NCBI GenBank assembly: GCA_001516055.1
Contig: LOEZ01000036.1
Coordinates: 1 to 50,787, forward strand
DNA: 50,787 bases
Source: Gracilibacter sp. BRH_c7a
GTDB lineage: Bacteria; Bacillota; Desulfitobacteriia; Desulfitobacteriales; Syntrophobotulaceae
Direction of reading: 5' to 3'
Below the pieces are notes generated by a model. That model ran no database searches. It saw only the letters and a program-made list of their open reading frames with translations, and had not been told where the DNA came from. Position numbers and translations under genes: made by a program. This document shows, one piece after another, positions 7,634 to 32,292 of this stretch. Within the stretch, counting starts at the first letter, position 1; each line of letters begins with the position of its first letter.

Positions 7634-8824
7634 TTACGTTCTTTTCAGGTACTTCCAATAGTATGGATTAAGCGCCAGTAAAGCCGGACAAATCCCGCAG
7701 GCCAAACTACCTCTAATATCTTCTTTGTCCCATTCCTCTGCCTCAGAAGGAAGTCCTCTTATAAAAGACATTACTTCTTCTCGGTTTTGTTTTTCTTCGC
7801 TGAGATACCTTAATATATCTCCAGGGATTAACCATCTGCATCTTACACCTTCTTCATAAGAAGGTGGGGTTTTGGAAGCCTGCCCCAGCACAGCTTGGGT
7901 ATATAAATAGGGAAAATCTACACCTGAACGAACTGCAAGCTCTAAACTTCCCCAAAATCTAGGATTGATTTCCATTAGCTTTGGAGTACCATCTGTCGGA
8001 TCTTCTTTCCATTCAACCATTGCAACTCCTCGCCATGATAATGCCGTAAGCAGTTTAATGCTTAAATCAACTAAGTGAGGTGCAAATATACTCTTTCTAT
8101 CCGTACTAGGTCCACCTGACACCGGATATTGTCTTATTCTTTCATGTCCAAAGTAAGCCACACAATCTCCATCTTGATCCATTAGAAGAGAGATACCAAT
8201 TCCCCGGCCTTTGGCACTGATTCTTTCCTGGATAATTAGGGGTCCATACTTCTCCCAATGAGAACGATAAGCCAGTTTGTCACCTGGCCTAGCATAAACG
8301 ATCCCAACCGAACCAGAACCTGTTCTAGGTTTTATCACAAACTCAGAACATCTAATTTCAGAGATTATTTTTTCTAGTTCATCCACGTTACTTGGCTCCC
8401 ATGTTTGTGGGACAGGCAAATCAAGATTTTTAGCAAGGGTAATCGTTGCCGCTTTATCTTCAGCTACTTCCAACGACTTATTAGTGGGAAGCAATACTTT
8501 CGCATATTTTACAACTTCATCGTAATTATGGACGACCCACATTAGCGTTGCATCCTCCATAGGAAACAAGACTGGTTTTGGGTTGCCATCATATTGGGTC
8601 AGGAGATCCATCAGCTTCTGCCCGAAGGCATCAGGATTATGCTCAGCAGTTGGAGCAAGTACGCGCTTACTGGTGTACTTGGACCAAAATCCGGTTGTGA
8701 ACAAAGAATCTCCCATGACACTTACTTCACAACCAGCTTTGCCTAAAGAACGTATAACACTAATACTCTTTCTCCATAGGCCGTCAGTTACAATTGTCTG
8801 AATAGGATTAGATTTTCTATTCAT
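7634..8824 (-). CDS. ATP-grasp domain protein (carboxylate-amine ligase-like)
   Basis: ATP-grasp enzyme, expected to activate a carboxylate as an acyl phosphate and join it to an amine or thiol; the substrate is unknown. In 396 residues: an N-terminal pre-ATP-grasp region (TDGLWRKSISVIRSLGKAG), ATP-binding VIKPRTGSGSVGIV, and the C-terminal metal site MEINPRFWGS followed by SGVDFPYLY. The start overlaps the HAD phosphatase stop by 4 bases (ATGA). A paralogue at 15236-16402 shares the same architecture. Enzymes of this type occur in polysaccharide loci, where they may attach amino acids to sugars (inference). Confidence 0.85.
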   Translation of the reverse strand: MNRKSNPIQTIVTDGLWRKSISVIRSLGKAGCEVSVMGDSLFTTGFWSKYTSKRVLAPTAEHNPDAFGQKLMDLLTQYDGNPKPVLFPMEDATLMWVVHNYDEVVKYAKVLLPTNKSLEVAEDKAATITLAKNLDLPVPQTWEPSNVDELEKIISEIRCSEFVIKPRTGSGSVGIVYARPGDKLAYRSHWEKYGPLIIQERISAKGRGIGISLLMDQDGDCVAYFGHERIRQYPVSGGPSTDRKSIFAPHLVDLSIKLLTALSWRGVAMVEWKEDPTDGTPKLMEINPRFWGSLELAVRSGVDFPYLYTQAVLGQASKTPPSYEEGVRCRWLIPGDILRYLSEEKQNREEVMSFIRGLPSEAEEWDKEDIRGSLACGICPALLALNPYYWKYLKRT

Positions 8825-10498: not shown

Positions 10499-10792
10499 AT
10501 GACCATCCTTAACAATCACTCTCATCCAGTAAAAAAGAAAGATATTGTATATCAGTCTATGCCTCCTGACACAATTCTGTTGAATTTGGATAACGGATTC
10601 TATTATAGTACGAACGAGATAGGTGCTGAAGTATGGGATTGCTGTGATGGCAGACACTCTATAATAGATATTATTAAACACATTAGCAACCAATACAATG
10701 TTTCTGCTGATGAGATTAAAAATGATGTTCTTAGTTTTATTGTTGATATGAAGAAAGAGGGGCTCCTGCAAATCCAAAATGATGAAGTTTAA
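10499..10792 (+). CDS. PqqD-like RiPP recognition protein (lasso B1-type)
   Basis: Small winged-helix protein of the PqqD family. In RiPP systems this domain, the RiPP recognition element, binds the leader peptide and presents it to the modifying enzymes; in lasso pathways it is called B1. The 97 residues show the family pattern: a strand pair around TILLNLDNGFYYSTNEIGAEVWD, then IIDIIKHISNQYNVS and a final helix DVLSFIVDMKKEGLLQ. The ATG at 10499 has AAGGAGAGGAAG just upstream; a longer frame to 10475 has none. First gene of a four-gene plus-strand operon. The likely ligand is the leader encoded at 13255-13371. Confidence 0.88.
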   Translation: MTILNNHSHPVKKKDIVYQSMPPDTILLNLDNGFYYSTNEIGAEVWDCCDGRHSIIDIIKHISNQYNVSADEIKNDVLSFIVDMKKEGLLQIQNDEV

Positions 10793-11198
10793 TAGAAAAT
10801 TACCCAAATGTTTCTTTATTATTCGGGTGGTCTTCGTGACTATTTGGTTACAATATCTCCTAGCTTTCAAAAAAATTCTTCAATTATTAGCATATATAGA
10901 ATCTAAGCAGAAGAACATCTTTGTTGAACAAGAAGAAATCGAACAAATGGTAACCATCTTATACAGGATCGCTCGCTGGAAGTTTTTTTTAATTCGCAAC
11001 AACTGTCTTAAAAAAAACTTATTGTTATACTATTTTCTCGTCCAATATGGAGTAAAAAATATTAAGATCAATATAGGGATAAGCAAAGAGAACATGAAAC
11101 TGGCCGGTCATTGTTGGCTGACCATACAAGAATGCGTTTATTTGGAACCGGAAGAATCCGTTTCGAAGTACATCGTAATCTATTCTTCAGGAGTATAA
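10779..11198 (+). CDS. Lasso-type B2 leader peptidase (transglutaminase-like)
   Basis: Cysteine-protease-like protein matching lasso peptide biosynthesis B2. In that family it cleaves the leader from the precursor together with B1. The 139 residues have an N-terminal hydrophobic helix (about 11-28), then the catalytic region: C76 in RNNCLKKNLLLYYFLVQYG and H111 in AGHCWLTI. The third acidic residue of the triad is not obvious; E118 is a candidate. It overlaps the PqqD-like gene by 14 bases, the usual B1-B2 coupling. No lasso cyclase (asparagine-synthetase-like C protein) is nearby. Confidence 0.82.
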   Translation: MMKFNRKLPKCFFIIRVVFVTIWLQYLLAFKKILQLLAYIESKQKNIFVEQEEIEQMVTILYRIARWKFFLIRNNCLKKNLLLYYFLVQYGVKNIKINIGISKENMKLAGHCWLTIQECVYLEPEESVSKYIVIYSSGV

Positions 11199-11200
11199 GC

Positions 11201-12196
11201 ATGTTAATAGCGTCCGATAACTTTATATCTTTTAAAATTGGTCACGTGAATATATCTTTTTCAGTAGATAATGATGATTTACGTATAGCCATTCAGCAAT
11301 GGTTAAAAGATTTTCAAATATCAATTCCAGAAAAACCTCAGAAGATGATTAAGGTTAGGCTACACCATTTTGAGCCTAATCAGCCGCTTCCATATAATAT
11401 ACCTAATCAAGCTAAGCTTACCGATCAAAATAATGATGCTAAATATTATACCTACCGTAATTTATGGATTGTTGAGTTTGCTCAAGCGGGAATTATGATT
11501 ATTAACCGGTCCACTCTCAATGTTCTAGGGTTAGTCTATAGTGAAATCCTACTTGAATCAGTATGGGATTTTGATATTTTCATGCATCCATTGTATGAAC
11601 TCATGCGTCAATTAGGTTTATATACTCAGCATTCCGGTGCCGTCAGCTATGACGGATTTGGCCTTCTTCTTGCCGGGAAATCGGGGCAAGGCAAATCGAC
11701 TCTCTCTGTTGATTTGCTTGAGAAAGGATTCTCGTTTTTGTCGGATGACCGCTGTTTTCTATTAGATGACAGCGGAAGCACTGAAGTAATTGGGATTTAC
11801 GAGCCAGCCAAAGTATTTGCCTTTAATATAAAACATATCTCAAAACTCAATAGTATTGAGGGTCTTTCTTCTGATATCCACACGAAGAATCACTTGGATC
11901 TTCGTATCTACTATCCAGAGAAAATCCAACTAAAAACTCCGTTGAACGGTATTATTTTCCCCAGCTGGTCGCCTAGCGAAAAAAGCCGGTTAGAGACTTT
12001 ATCACCTGGAAAAGCTCTTATTGAACTTCTTCCGCTGACTATGGTTTGTTTTGATACTGCTACGAGTAAAACCCATTTTGAATTTTTAGGAGAAGTAGTG
12101 AGTAAAACTCCTTTAAGCAGATTAATACTCGGATATGACAGGGAAAATTGGCATTCATTGGTCTTGGAATTCATTTCTCATTCGTGGAGGCAATAA
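11201..12196 (+). CDS. HPr-kinase-like RiPP-associated kinase
   Basis: P-loop kinase related to HPr kinase/phosphorylase, as found in paeninodin-type lasso clusters (PadeK), where it phosphorylates a serine near the peptide C-terminus. In 331 residues: an N-terminal domain of about 130 residues, H144 in QHSGAV, Walker A GKSGQGKST (159-167), and the SDD motif at 181-183. The ATG at 11201 lies two bases after the B2 stop with AGGAG seven bases upstream; the longer frame from 11111 overlaps B2 without a site. The peptide encoded at 13255-13371 ends in Arg-Ser-His and has three serines in its predicted core. Confidence 0.85.
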   Translation: MLIASDNFISFKIGHVNISFSVDNDDLRIAIQQWLKDFQISIPEKPQKMIKVRLHHFEPNQPLPYNIPNQAKLTDQNNDAKYYTYRNLWIVEFAQAGIMIINRSTLNVLGLVYSEILLESVWDFDIFMHPLYELMRQLGLYTQHSGAVSYDGFGLLLAGKSGQGKSTLSVDLLEKGFSFLSDDRCFLLDDSGSTEVIGIYEPAKVFAFNIKHISKLNSIEGLSSDIHTKNHLDLRIYYPEKIQLKTPLNGIIFPSWSPSEKSRLETLSPGKALIELLPLTMVCFDTATSKTHFEFLGEVVSKTPLSRLILGYDRENWHSLVLEFISHSWRQ

Positions 12197-12198
12197 AA

Positions 12199-13215
12199 TT
12201 GGATGAACTAAGCCAGGAACCGCTACTTGAATACATACGTAACAATTGTCATGCTGAATACTCTTCTTTTACCATTGAAATTACGAACACCATCCGTGAA
12301 GTAGGTGTTCGTAACATGTTCATTCAGCAAAAACTAAAGGACCTTATCCAAAAATTTGAAGGTGAAAAGATATCAGTCGTAATACTTAAAGGATCCCATC
12401 TTATTCATGATATATACCCCTTTGGTATAAGACCACTTGAGGATATTGACTTGTTGCTACAAAGGAAAGATTTTATTCTAGCCGATCAGATTATCCGTGA
12501 TATGGGCTATTCTGATTGTTCTGTTGGTTTAGATATCTGGACCCACCTGCAATTTTCTAATAAAATAACGTATACTAACCATACAATGCCTTTCATTCCT
12601 ATCGATATCCATTTCTCTCTAGGGCCATATCCTTACCTTGGTAGACTTAATGGAGAGATGTTGTTTGAGAGCTATACTGAAAAGTTAGCAACCCCATCTG
12701 GAGAGTACAATGTGCTCCAGACAGAGATTCTTCTGATTCACTTATGCCTTCATCTATTTCAACATCATAATGAAAATTGGCAAAAATCAGGCTGTGATAT
12801 TATTGCTGTTATTCTAGATAAACATGATTCTATTAACTGGGATCGGTTCAACCATATTGTGAAGGAAAATAAGCTCAATCTTCCAGTAGTCTATAGCCTT
12901 AACAAAGCATCGGAACTAGCTCCTAAAAAAATAATTCCAACCTCAGTATTAAATGAGATTGGAAATAAAAAACTTGGCGAATATGAACAAATAATTTTCA
13001 ATTTAAGCAAAAGACATCTAAACACTATGGAAAAACACCTTCTTCAGTTCATCACAACTCCCAGTTTTACCTCGAAGTTACAATGCTTACTAAGAATTAT
13101 ATTTCCAAGGAGATCATTTCTTAACCTTCATTTTTCTGGCAGTTATGTAAAATATTTTTTTTCTATACTAAAAACTTTTATTTATTTTCTGAAAACAGTG
13201 TTCTCCCAACAATGA
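12199..13215 (+). CDS. Nucleotidyltransferase family protein (NTP_transf_5-like)
   Basis: Nucleotidyltransferase-fold protein of the kind found with B1/B2/kinase RiPP clusters. Motifs: KGS at 64-66, R78 in GIRPLEDIDLLL, and the metal-binding D82-x-D84. 338 residues from a TTG at 12199, chosen because GGAGG (12186-12190) is eight bases upstream and the codon follows the kinase stop by two bases. The longest frame (TTG at 12148) overlaps the kinase with no site. It may add a nucleotide to the phosphorylated or free peptide, or act on another small molecule. It ends 39 bases from the convergent precursor gene. Confidence 0.8.
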   Translation: MDELSQEPLLEYIRNNCHAEYSSFTIEITNTIREVGVRNMFIQQKLKDLIQKFEGEKISVVILKGSHLIHDIYPFGIRPLEDIDLLLQRKDFILADQIIRDMGYSDCSVGLDIWTHLQFSNKITYTNHTMPFIPIDIHFSLGPYPYLGRLNGEMLFESYTEKLATPSGEYNVLQTEILLIHLCLHLFQHHNENWQKSGCDIIAVILDKHDSINWDRFNHIVKENKLNLPVVYSLNKASELAPKKIIPTSVLNEIGNKKLGEYEQIIFNLSKRHLNTMEKHLLQFITTPSFTSKLQCLLRIIFPRRSFLNLHFSGSYVKYFFSILKTFIYFLKTVFSQQ

Positions 13216-13254
13216 GGCGTCAATAGCACAACAGCACAATAACTTCAGGCTAAA

Positions 13255-13371
13255 TCAGTGGCTTCTGCCGCCTCCTCCGCCGCCGCCAGTACTACTTAAC
13301 GTAATTTCTTTCAATTGTACATGCTTGGTTAATACAGGCTTCTCATAACCCTGTGTTTTTTTATTATCCAT
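13255..13371 (-). CDS. Glycine-rich RiPP precursor with lasso-type leader
   Basis: A 38-residue peptide, too short for most gene finders. The ATG is preceded by a near-perfect AGGAGG about six bases upstream. The leader has Y9-x-x-P12-x-L14 and T24, the exact spacing of the lasso leader consensus YxxPxLxxxGxxxxxT (the Gly position is V18). Cutting one residue after T24 leaves SSTGGGGGGGRSH: seven glycines, no Asp or Glu, hence no acceptor for a lasso isopeptide ring. The leader should be bound by the PqqD-like protein and cut by B2. It lies 61 bases downstream of the ABC exporter gene. It could be a degenerate relic, but the strong ribosome site and intact leader argue against that. Confidence 0.82.
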   Translation of the reverse strand: MDNKKTQGYEKPVLTKHVQLKEITLSSTGGGGGGGRSH

Positions 13372-13396
13372 ATTATCCCTCCTGACTTTTTATTAA

Positions 13397-13425
13397 ATAA
13401 TAACAAATATAGGCAAAATATACAA
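13397..13425 (-). promoter_or_regulatory. Possible dedicated promoter of the precursor peptide gene
   Basis: TTGTAT (13425-13420), a 17-base spacer and TATTAT (13402-13397) on the minus strand lie wholly inside the 61-base gap after the ABC exporter stop. The -10 ends 25 bases before the precursor ATG, giving a very short leader. A separate promoter would allow high precursor levels relative to the exporter. Confidence 0.4.
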
Positions 13426-13432
13426 CTATTTG

Positions 13433-15139
13433 CTACTTTTTGGAGCATCCTTTTACATGTTTTTCAATAATATATTCTTCATAACCATAAAATTGATTAA
13501 CAATTGCTTCATCGATATATAATACTTTGTTTGATAATTTAATACTCTCGATGCTGTGGGTTATAATCAACACAATTCTATCCTTAGCAAGTAATTTTAC
13601 CGACTTAAGTATTTGTTCTTCACTATCTCTATCAAGAGAAGTTGTTGCTTCATCCAATATTAATACATAGGGATTTTCCAGTAGTGCCCTGGCAATAGAT
13701 ATTCTTTTCTTCTGTCCAGCAGATAGCCTTATACCATCTTCACCGACAATCGTATCATAACCGTCTTCTAACTTTGCGATATATGAATCGACATTGGCAA
13801 ATTCACAAGCGATCCTCAATTGCTCCTCACTTACATCTTTTCTTCCCATCACAATATTGTCCTTGATAGAAGCATTAAATAAATAATCTGCCTGAGGAAC
13901 TATTGCAATACTTTTTCTAAGAGACTTCAGTTTGATTCTCTTTATATCTATCCCTTTAATATTAATCATACCTTCAGTCGGATCATAAAATCGCATAATC
14001 AGATTGGCCAGTGTTGTTTTCCCTTGTCCGCTCTTACCTACAATACCGACTATATCTCCTTGATCAAGTTTAAAATTCACTCCTTTTAACACAGGTTCTC
14101 TCTGGGGATATGAGAAAGACACATTCTCGAACTCAATGCTGGCCTTTATTAGATCTATATCTACCGCATCAGGTCTGTCTTGAATAATAAGGGACAGATC
14201 CATTACTTCAAATATCCTCTCTGCGGCCGGCAGTGACTTGTGAAACCCAACAACTATATCATAGGCACTGAAAAATAAGCTTACAATGTAATTAAGGTAA
14301 AACGATATGGCAATCAAAGTACCAATCGTCATTTCCCCTTTTATTACCGCTATACCACCTATACCCCAAATTATTAACAATCCTAAAATGTTAATAATCG
14401 TGGTTGATGATGATGCTACGGCATATTTCATACTTAGTTTTCTCTTCGCATCTTCTGTTGCCTGCATCGCGATATATGTTTGCTCTGTTCGTGGTTCAAA
14501 TACGGAGAAGGATTGGATTGCTTTAACCATCAGTAAATCTTCCTGTAGCCTCTCCATCAAGCCTTCTTTTTTTTCTTGCACTATTTTACTTAACATAAAA
14601 ATCTTATTTTTAAAAAGCAAATATAAGCCATAGAAAATAGGCAAGAAAACACAAGCCGCTACAATCATTTTCCAATTAATATAAATAACTATAAAAAAAA
14701 TGAATACTCCTACAAGGACGTTTTGAACAAAGTAAACGAATCGGTCGAGCAACAAGTTCTGCACAGCATCAACATCAGACGTAATTCGAGAGAGCATTCT
14801 GCCTCTGTGATTTTCCGAATAGAAGCTTTGGGGCAATTTTAACAGGTGCTTATATAAATCTATTCTAAGCTTTGTAAAAACACCTTTACGTATTTTTAAA
14901 GTAATGGATGTTTGAAGTAAATACAGCAATTCTTGTATTATCCTGGCTAATGCAAGAACAACCAGCATCTTGATCAAATAAGCTGTATTGCCTGTCATAA
15001 TTCCATTATCCACAATTTCTTTATAGAAAAAGGGGTTGATTACAGTAATAAGAGTTAAAAACAGCAAAGATAGAGATATTTTTAGGCCATCTTTATAATA
15101 CGGCCTCAATAAGCTGCGAAATCTTTTAATAATAAACAT
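13433..15139 (-). CDS. ABC exporter, fused permease-ATPase
   Basis: Type I ABC exporter half-transporter: six membrane helices in the first 310 residues, then an ATPase domain with Walker A GKSGQGKTT (about residue 370), signature LSAGQKKR, Walker B VLILDEATTSLD and switch ITHS. 568 residues from the ATG at 15139, chosen because AAGGGG lies eight bases upstream; an in-frame GTG at 15196 lacks a site. There is no N-terminal C39 peptidase domain, which fits leader removal by the separate B2 protein. With the precursor gene immediately downstream it is the likely peptide exporter (the D function of lasso clusters). Confidence 0.9.
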   Translation of the reverse strand: MFIIKRFRSLLRPYYKDGLKISLSLLFLTLITVINPFFYKEIVDNGIMTGNTAYLIKMLVVLALARIIQELLYLLQTSITLKIRKGVFTKLRIDLYKHLLKLPQSFYSENHRGRMLSRITSDVDAVQNLLLDRFVYFVQNVLVGVFIFFIVIYINWKMIVAACVFLPIFYGLYLLFKNKIFMLSKIVQEKKEGLMERLQEDLLMVKAIQSFSVFEPRTEQTYIAMQATEDAKRKLSMKYAVASSSTTIINILGLLIIWGIGGIAVIKGEMTIGTLIAISFYLNYIVSLFFSAYDIVVGFHKSLPAAERIFEVMDLSLIIQDRPDAVDIDLIKASIEFENVSFSYPQREPVLKGVNFKLDQGDIVGIVGKSGQGKTTLANLIMRFYDPTEGMINIKGIDIKRIKLKSLRKSIAIVPQADYLFNASIKDNIVMGRKDVSEEQLRIACEFANVDSYIAKLEDGYDTIVGEDGIRLSAGQKKRISIARALLENPYVLILDEATTSLDRDSEEQILKSVKLLAKDRIVLIITHSIESIKLSNKVLYIDEAIVNQFYGYEEYIIEKHVKGCSKK

Positions 15140-15235: not shown

Positions 15236-16402
15236 TTAGCGCCTTAATAAAAACTTCCACATTCTCTTATCAAATAGATAACGTAGACAAGCCGTAATAA
15301 AGCCCACTATGGGCATGGGATCGTCTTTCGATATTATGTCATCTCTTATGCCATCACTTTTGCCACTCCAAAAAGGAGGGTTCATATTCTTTCTGTCATT
15401 GTTAAATATATAATGGAGAATATCTCCGGGAAGAAGATTACGACACATGATTCCTGTTTGATACTGTTTGACAGGTTCAACATCACCATCTACAGCAATT
15501 TTATATAACAACCACGGAAAATCAACGCCCGCATTAATTCCCATCTGCAGCGAATTCCAAAATTTACAATTCAATTCGAGAAACTTAATTTCCCCCGTTT
15601 CTTTTTGAACCATAAACTCAAGGTCAGCTATCCCAAACCAATTTAGCCCTTTCATATATTCTATTGCCATCTCCAACATCTCCGGGTAAATTACACTTTC
15701 CTGAACTGTACTAGGCCCAGTCACTAAGGGATATTTCCTGACATGTTTTTGAATAAATGAAGCTCTTAATTCGCTTCTAGAATTATATAAAAGTACAACA
15801 TCATATACATCTCCTTCTCCCAGATGTTCTTGAATAATAGGATAAGGATATTGTTCATGTACCTCTTGATATATCTTTAAAATATCTTGTTTATTATATG
15901 CAGTTTGGATTCCCCGTCCACCGTTGCTTTTAACTGGCTTTACCATTAGTGGGTAAGTTAAATGTTCAGTTATTTTCTGTATATCATCTAATTCTTCTGG
16001 AAAAACAGTTTTGGGAATATTCACACCTACTGACATAGCATGCTTGTAAGCTTTTCCCTTATCCGAGGTAATTATATAGCTATCATATTCAGGAAGGGGT
16101 ATTAAACATATTTTTTCTAGTTCTTCCTTATGCTCCATTGCAACGGCTACTGTATCCTCATCCATCGGAAAGAAAACATCAATCCCATATTCTTTGATCT
16201 TGTCACTTACATATCTATAAAAATGTTCAGGGTCTTGGGACGCACTCGAACATACTAAAGAACCCGTACAATATTTGGAGAATGCAGCAGGTGAAAATCT
16301 GGTTTCCTCAACAACATAGGTTTCTATTCCTTTTGCACCCAAAGACCTAACAGTCGCCAGAGCTTTTCGAAGTTGGGCATTCGTTATTAATACTTTCGTT
16401 AT
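15236..16402 (-). CDS. ATP-grasp domain protein, apparent ATA start
   Basis: Second ATP-grasp ligase-like protein of the island, paralogous to 7634-8824. ATP-binding MVKPVKSNGGRGI is normal, but the C-terminal metal motif reads ELNCKFWNS where the paralogue has EINPRFWGS. Homology continues upstream of the first ordinary start (TTG at 16342) through VLITNAQLRKALATVRSLG, matching the paralogue's N-terminus. The only sensible start for this is ATA at 16402 behind AGAGGGGGAG, so I use it: 388 residues. A TTG start at 16342 gives 368 residues and truncates the first strand. It lies 18 bases after the GT-C-like gene and 96 before the ABC exporter; membership in the RiPP system or the polymer pathway is open. 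Confidence 0.8.
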   Translation of the reverse strand: MTKVLITNAQLRKALATVRSLGAKGIETYVVEETRFSPAAFSKYCTGSLVCSSASQDPEHFYRYVSDKIKEYGIDVFFPMDEDTVAVAMEHKEELEKICLIPLPEYDSYIITSDKGKAYKHAMSVGVNIPKTVFPEELDDIQKITEHLTYPLMVKPVKSNGGRGIQTAYNKQDILKIYQEVHEQYPYPIIQEHLGEGDVYDVVLLYNSRSELRASFIQKHVRKYPLVTGPSTVQESVIYPEMLEMAIEYMKGLNWFGIADLEFMVQKETGEIKFLELNCKFWNSLQMGINAGVDFPWLLYKIAVDGDVEPVKQYQTGIMCRNLLPGDILHYIFNNDRKNMNPPFWSGKSDGIRDDIISKDDPMPIVGFITACLRYLFDKRMWKFLLRR

Positions 16403-31872: not shown

Positions 31873-32292
31873 TTATTCCTCTACCTCAGCTATGACCAAG
31901 TATCTTTTTTCTATCCGTTCACAGAACTTGATAGGGTAACAAGTTATCAGAATTAATCTATGATAGTCTATTTGAGTGGTGATTATCTCGTTAATATTAT
32001 CGACTATCTTTATCTCGGTAACCTTATAAAAAAGTTCCTTCCCTAGGGTTTGGATAGATATCCCGTCATTTATCTTCAAATCCCCCAGGTTTTGAAAGAC
32101 AGTTTCCCTATGTCCGAGTATAATACAGCTTCCCATCTCTCCAGGCCACGATGATCGCTTATAATAACCGGCCCCTTGTTTTAAGTCTTCTATGTTTGTG
32201 CCATACACTATAGGTATACGATCATTCGTGCTATTAAGAACTAAGTTGCCGATAACCTTCCTATCATTAACTTCTTTGTTTCTTATACTCAT
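31873..32292 (-). CDS. Small sortase without membrane anchor
   Basis: Sortase-fold transpeptidase, closest in motif style to class D/E. The catalytic residues are present: H61 in ILGHRETVF, C118 in LITCYP and R130 in EKRYLVI. At 139 residues it consists of the catalytic barrel only; no N-terminal membrane helix or signal is present. The ATG at 32292 has AGGAAG upstream, and the region upstream reveals no plausible hydrophobic extension. It could be a truncated gene or a protein that is not exported. No gene with a sorting signal was seen nearby. Confidence 0.85.
   Translation of the reverse strand: MSIRNKEVNDRKVIGNLVLNSTNDRIPIVYGTNIEDLKQGAGYYKRSSWPGEMGSCIILGHRETVFQNLGDLKINDGISIQTLGKELFYKVTEIKIVDNINEIITTQIDYHRLILITCYPIKFCERIEKRYLVIAEVEE

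Follow-up and report, generated by a model that had tools for sequence, protein, structure and literature searches.

The window analyzed here is contig LOEZ01000036.1 of Gracilibacter sp. BRH_c7a at its full length of 50,787 bp, and the system in question is a six-gene cassette for a ribosomally synthesized and post-translationally modified peptide (RiPP). A first-pass annotation of the window had placed here the lasso-peptide genes B1 and B2, a kinase, a nucleotidyltransferase (NTase), and an opposing ATP-binding cassette (ABC) exporter, with a matching precursor but without the asparagine-synthetase-like lasso cyclase (C). The B1, B2, kinase, NTase, precursor, and exporter genes are all present and intact at that place, the enzymes and the exporter having domain matches:

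10499..10792 (+): B1, a stand-alone PqqD-type RiPP recognition element (RRE); PF05402, 3e-19
10782..11198 (+): B2, a lasso-type transglutaminase-like cysteine leader peptidase; PF13471, 3e-9; NCBIfam lasso_biosyn_B2, 41.2 bits (cut-off 33 bits)
11201..12196 (+): HprK-like peptide kinase; Hpr_kinase_C, 1e-7; predicted HprK fold
12199..13215 (+): NTP_transf_5 family nucleotidyltransferase-fold protein, PsmN/LppN-like; PF14907, 2.5e-27
13255..13371 (-): precursor peptide, 38 amino acids; leader and core start common to the Paenibacillus darwinianus precursor
13433..15139 (-): MsbA-like ABC exporter with membrane and ATPase domains; PF00664 and PF00005 only

The B1, B2, kinase, and NTP_transf_5 genes form one tightly packed operon on the + strand. 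The precursor and exporter genes lie on the - strand, convergent with the operon, with ~40 bp separating the stop codons, and the precursor gene begins 61 bp downstream of the exporter gene on the same strand. B1 is the only PqqD protein in the whole assembly. B2 retains Cys75 and His110 in our motif table, and no sequence match to it was found in the PDB. The Hpr_kinase_C match of the kinase falls slightly below the Pfam cut-off; its structure model (predicted local distance difference test (pLDDT) score 88) has an HprK-like fold with a Z of 16, and the published peptide-kinase motif of PadeK, PsmK, BsfK, and LppK is complete (H144, G159, G162, G164, K165, S166, D182, and D183). The NTase gene starts at a TTG codon preceded by GGAGG, and its product conserves the KGS, DID, and Asp motifs within a predicted Pol-beta-type NTase fold, for which the model is of moderate quality (pLDDT 64). 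A C39 peptidase domain was not found in the exporter.

The precursor peptide

The precursor MDNKKTQGYEKPVLTKHVQLKEITLSSTGGGGGGGRSH, whose gene has the ribosome-binding site AGGAGG, divides into the leader YEKPVLTKHVQLKEIT(L) and the predicted core SSTGGGGGGGRSH. It is the sole open reading frame (ORF) of its leader type in the window, although the leader motif by itself is weak, with 0.6 such ORFs expected per shuffled window. The leader is of the Y type, with a Thr at Tyr+15, and ends in LKEIT. As in lasso systems with a B1 RRE and a B2, a YxxP leader is combined with a Thr that would occupy position -2 in the predicted register. The RRE and leader also match as a pair, because B1 carries an Asp at the column of LppB D70, which holds the leader Tyr, whereas most RREs of W-leader paeninodin-type clusters have Gln there. 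The core departs from the lasso pattern of an Asp or Glu at position 7, 8, or 9, as neither residue occurs after the leader Thr, and Lys is also absent. Compared with the motif YxxPxVLxHQxIxFETxxS of the linear polyphosphorylated peptides (LPPs; lppAKBSDN; Popov et al., Nat Commun 2026, PMC13381572), the window segment YEKPVLTKHVQLKEITLSS matches in the spacing of Tyr, Pro, His, Thr, and Ser, but lacks the Q, F, and E.

Search for a lasso cyclase

No asparagine-synthetase-like C protein is encoded anywhere in the window, as the first-pass annotation had stated, and the same holds for the whole Gracilibacter assembly (4.1 Mb, 98 contigs, 95.8% complete) searched with PF00733 and with a lasso-C profile built from eight lasso C proteins. 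The cyclase gene outside the window that would have refuted the first-pass proposal was thus not found in the remaining assembly. PF00733 matches four proteins there: AsnB (616 aa), a 351-aa protein encoded in a sugar cluster, one of the LarE type, and GuaA. The lasso-C profile scored 917 bits over its full length in a control genome (G069), and gave only a partial AsnB match in the Gracilibacter assembly. Because the PqqD of the cassette is the only one in the assembly, there is also no sign of a second lasso locus. An unlinked C gene hidden in an assembly gap is formally possible.

A syntenic cassette in Paenibacillus darwinianus

Among the matches listed in a contig scan with the kinase alignment was a locus of the distant bacterium P. 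darwinianus (L032) with the same six genes in identical order and orientation. The B1, B2, kinase, NTase, and ABC proteins of the two cassettes are 49%, 46%, 50%, 47%, and 55% identical, respectively. The P. darwinianus precursor, MDKEQQVKGTPAYEKPVLTKHARLKEVTLSSTGGGGDKRGGSGKKDGKGGNDNGDN, has the pattern YEKPVLTKHxxLKExTLSSTGGGG in common with the window precursor, and the tails differ. It is this syntenic copy, and not the leader motif alone, that makes the cassette and its precursor clearly real. The gene set B1-B2-kinase-NTase without C thus recurs, together with a Y leader and an SSTGGGG core start, whereas its absence from any related genome would have counted as a refutation in the first-pass annotation. 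Because the neighboring genes differ between the two genomes, the six genes constitute the unit and the ATP-grasp genes that flank it in the window do not belong to it. In genome searches covering 83 members of the class, 396 Paenibacillaceae genomes, and 399 genomes of Bacilli, P. darwinianus was the only further window-type member found, and there was one weak plasmid match.

P. darwinianus likewise yielded no lasso C with the lasso-C profile and PF00733, in an assembly that is 75% complete; PF00733 matches there two proteins of the AsnB type, both retaining the MCG start, along with MnmA-, GuaA-, and QueC-type proteins. The absence of an acidic ring-closing residue, noted in the first-pass annotation, holds for the window core but does not extend to the P. 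darwinianus predicted core, which has an Asp at position 8, where a lasso ring could close. This Asp8 is one ground for considering a true lasso pathway in which the cyclase is encoded elsewhere, or lies in an assembly gap, and the peptide is cyclized in trans; the incompleteness of both assemblies and the 98 contigs of the Gracilibacter assembly are another. We regard such a pathway as very unlikely, given that a sensitive profile finds no C in either genome, neither Asp nor Glu is available in the window core for ring closure, each genome has a single PqqD, and B2 and the kinase group with those of other cyclase-free clusters, as described below.

Cyclase-free relatives and phylogenetic placement

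Lasso-type B2 proteins were found in 13 of 398 genomes drawn from the phylum, with strong B2 scores in 9. Eight of these nine loci were examined over 17 kb, and each encodes a C protein in that stretch. Among the B2-bearing genomes of this draw, no C lay near the window cassette or loci L029, L030, and L031. A wider search added L071-L073, which together with L029 and L030 form a Syntrophomonas type. Its complete loci are ordered B1-B2-kinase-DUF362-B12 radical S-adenosylmethionine (SAM) enzyme-NTase and adjoin glycosyltransferases, each encodes two or three precursors in which the conserved Thr is followed by 6-14 residues that always include Ser or Thr, and no C was found in the four genomes searched. 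Like the window cassette, these clusters are cyclase-free and B2-dependent, with Y leaders that carry Thr at Tyr+15 and short Ser/Thr cores; they differ in having a cobalamin-binding radical SAM enzyme and several precursors, neither of which occurs in the window cassette. The Syntrophomonas-type clusters are possibly a RiPP family of their own.

LPP loci were recognized by their leaders and by a signal-peptidase-like neighbor of the RRE. In the kinase tree, the window and P. darwinianus proteins join the Syntrophomonas type (95/80), and the kinases of LPP loci, the Syntrophomonas type, and the window type are separated from those of lasso clusters (93/91). The B2 tree separates the cyclase-free B2s from 16 lasso B2s (87/88), the NTase tree unites the window and Syntrophomonas types (93/87) with LPP next (93/91), and the exporter tree places the window type and LPP together (92/94). 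The Syntrophomonas type is the sister branch of the window type in the kinase, B2, and NTase trees; resolution in the RRE tree is poor. None of these branches settles the placement by itself, yet the four proteins (kinase, B2, NTase, and exporter) agree in falling outside the lasso branch.

This placement bears on whether the cassette is a decayed lasso cluster, that is, a paeninodin-type locus on its way out after loss of its C gene. All four enzymes are also found in paeninodin-type lasso clusters, and cyclase-less lasso loci do exist: L079 (6158-11125) holds a W-leader paeninodin-type kinase-B1-B2-NTase-ABC set with a precursor, and no lasso C was found in its single-contig genome. The L079 proteins, however, branch inside the lasso clade, which is the appearance of a lasso cluster that has recently become cyclase-less, whereas those of the window lie outside it. 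Moreover, the six window genes are intact with their catalytic motifs kept, the same C-less arrangement is conserved in P. darwinianus, and the leader Tyr and Thr spacing are unlike those of W-type paeninodin leaders. Decay is therefore highly improbable, and synteny, the intact motifs, and the position in the trees led us to reject the broken-lasso reading. The first-pass proposal of a self-consistent cyclase-free phosphopeptide pathway is supported, with no cyclase found elsewhere in the assembly, the gene set recurring in P. darwinianus, and the chemistry assigned by homology. The equation of the enzymes with a simple paeninodin accessory set, in contrast, has to be given up, as the trees group the window kinase, B2, NTase, and exporter not with paeninodin-type lasso clusters but with LPP and other cyclase-free clusters.

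Comparison with known systems

A nearly identical kind of pathway has been published for the LPPs, whose gene set, which lacks B2, directs the formation of a linear phosphopeptide in B. subtilis (PMC13381572). Both systems comprise an RRE with a Tyr-reading Asp, an HprK-like kinase, an NTP transferase, an MsbA-like exporter, and a short Y-leader precursor with Thr at Tyr+15 and Ser at Tyr+18, neither has a cyclase, and their kinases, NTases, and exporters branch together. They differ in the leader peptidase, which is the SipW-like signal peptidase LppS in LPP loci and a lasso B2 in the window, and in the leader end, which is IxFET in LPPs and LKEIT in the window. No ORF for a SipW-like signal peptidase was found beside the cassette, the TIGR02228 matches of the assembly lying on other contigs. 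The LPP system is thus the same kind of pathway, and what is new here is the B2 cysteine peptidase in place of signal peptidase (SpI), along with a different leader end. A 225-aa frame that seemed to fuse RRE and SpI in LPP loci L075 and L078 was dismissed as a reading-frame artefact.

The paeninodin- and pseudomycoidin-type lasso clusters (A, B1, B2, C, kinase, NTase, and ABC) have the B1, B2, kinase, NTase, and exporter families in common with the window. The window, however, has no C and no core acid, its leader Tyr replaces Trp, its Thr stands at Tyr+15 rather than Trp+13, and its proteins fall in other clades. The Bsf phosphorylated lasso cluster of Bradymonas sediminis (PMC10368454) resembles the window in its Y leader, its B1, B2, kinase, NTase, and ABC genes, its full kinase motif, and phosphorylation near the core N terminus, which in the window is a prediction, but has the cyclase BsfC and an Ile at -2. 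HPr-rel-A and SynChlorMet (ScmC/ScmD) systems were set aside, as the NCBIfam matches lay far under cut-off. Our literature search found no paper describing B2, kinase, and NTase without C; the supplementary data of the LPP paper lay outside it. Cyclase-less loci as such were visible earlier, because a peptidase and a cyclase accompany only ~4,000 of the ~8,000 lasso-like discrete RREs noted by RRE-Finder.

Proposed pathway

The cassette likely encodes a complete cyclase-free RiPP pathway that is functionally LPP-like, with the signal-peptidase-like leader peptidase replaced by a lasso B2. In this pathway, B1 would bind the YEKPVL leader and present the precursor, and the HprK-like kinase would place one or more phosphates on the conserved SST at the core start. 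In LPPs, Thr stands at -1 and Ser3, 18 residues past the Tyr, is phosphorylated (PMC13381572), whereas BsfK, of a B1/B2 system, phosphorylates core Ser3, aided by B1, at residue 19 past the Tyr (PMC10368454). The likeliest phosphosite is accordingly predicted to be the Ser at Tyr+18 in the LPP register or the Thr at Tyr+19 in the Bsf register, both of which land in the SST. B2 is predicted to cut one residue past the leader Thr, EITL / SSTGGGGGGGRSH, because lasso B2s use Thr at -2 (PMC10885120, PMC10368454). The NTase-fold protein may afterwards build a sugar or other group on the phosphate, and the ABC transporter would export the linear peptide. The product is most likely a straight, phosphorylated, and perhaps sugar-tagged glycine-rich peptide.

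The first-pass annotation had also envisaged nucleotidylation, with the NTase transferring a nucleotide or building a nucleotide-sugar linkage, and the KGS, DID, and Asp motifs and Pol-beta-type fold would suit this role. A nucleotidylated end product is nevertheless unlikely. PsmN of pseudomycoidin, the one relative whose product has been assigned, was associated with the addition of one or two hexoses to phosphoserine, in a review that does not fully exclude nucleotidylation and leaves room for it followed by glycosylation (PMC9266682), and no change could be detected after LppN was deleted (PMC13381572). On these two grounds, we favor a phospho- or glycosyl-phospho-peptide, with low certainty.

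The LPP-like pathway draws on observations made here, namely the intact genes, their conservation as a unit, the catalytic residues, the outcome of the cyclase searches, the tree positions, and the pairing of the Y leader with the RRE Asp, and on the precedents of LPP and BsfK. Several points weigh against it: tree supports are mostly 85-95 with long branches, only two genomes, one with a 75% complete assembly, have yielded window-type cassettes, the Asp8 core of P. darwinianus would be compatible with a lasso ring if C were supplied, and every chemical step, cleavage site, and phosphosite is assigned by homology. More tentatively, and with doubt slightly outweighing confidence, the B2-processed cyclase-free phosphopeptides (the window and P. 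darwinianus cassettes and the Syntrophomonas type) may form a RiPP class of their own that links lasso peptides and LPPs and in which B2 works without a cyclase. In lasso biosynthesis, the step in which B2 removes the leader has been described as coupled to the closing of the ring by C (PMC10885120). If the pathway is as proposed, B1 and B2 acting without a cyclase would make the lasso front end a module usable for linear, phosphate-tagged peptides. The cassette also provides a small testable system for the roles of the kinase and NTase, a question left by the pseudomycoidin and LPP work, and a search rule (B1-B2-kinase-NTase without C, and a Y leader in which Thr stands at Tyr+15) for clusters at risk of being dropped by tools for lasso mining.

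Genomic surroundings and other loci

The cassette lies in polysaccharide-type surroundings of deacetylase, ATP-grasp, and membrane-protein genes and a Wzx/MurJ-like protein. LPPs are embedded in capsule loci (PMC13381572), and glycosyltransferases adjoin both the Syntrophomonas-type loci and the PqqD, NTase, and HPr-kinase genes on a mobilizable plasmid of the cyanobacterium Crinalium epipsammum (L097, 5895-8558), where methyltransferase genes are also present and no cyclase is annotated in the part shown. These contexts would fit a peptide that serves as a phosphate-linked tag or anchor for a surface polysaccharide made by the surrounding genes instead of a free secreted product. We consider this role quite unlikely, as the neighbors of the P. 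darwinianus cassette are not polysaccharide genes but a two-component system and a heterocycloanthracin-like locus. The latter (L032, 1-2276; a ThiF-like protein and a Cys/Gly-rich precursor) is directly upstream of the cassette.

In the window, CarB-like ATP-grasp genes flank the cassette on both sides (7634-8824 and 15236-16342 (-)), an arrangement resembling an insertion of the cassette into a cluster of polysaccharide type, and the GC content of most cassette genes is 33-37%, slightly under the 38% of the contig. A role for these ATP-grasp genes as ring-forming enzymes of a graspetide was rejected, as no such gene turned up next to the P. darwinianus cassette and the window core has no Asp, Glu, or Lys. 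Elsewhere in the window, a 139-aa sortase-domain protein (31873-32292 (-)) is encoded near a UDP-glucose-4-epimerase-like gene. Two further loci combine related parts in other ways. L031 (5978-9011), a cluster of B2, B1, SPASM radical SAM, and kinase genes in that order, also encodes two ABC proteins and the Cys-containing precursor MSKKIYVKPEIIEIGNLETVVLSGGRSSSRCRTWCR, and L022 (8049-14117) holds three PqqD-type RREs in ~6 kb, one in a lasso cluster, one beside a radical SAM gene, and one with LPP-like precursors.

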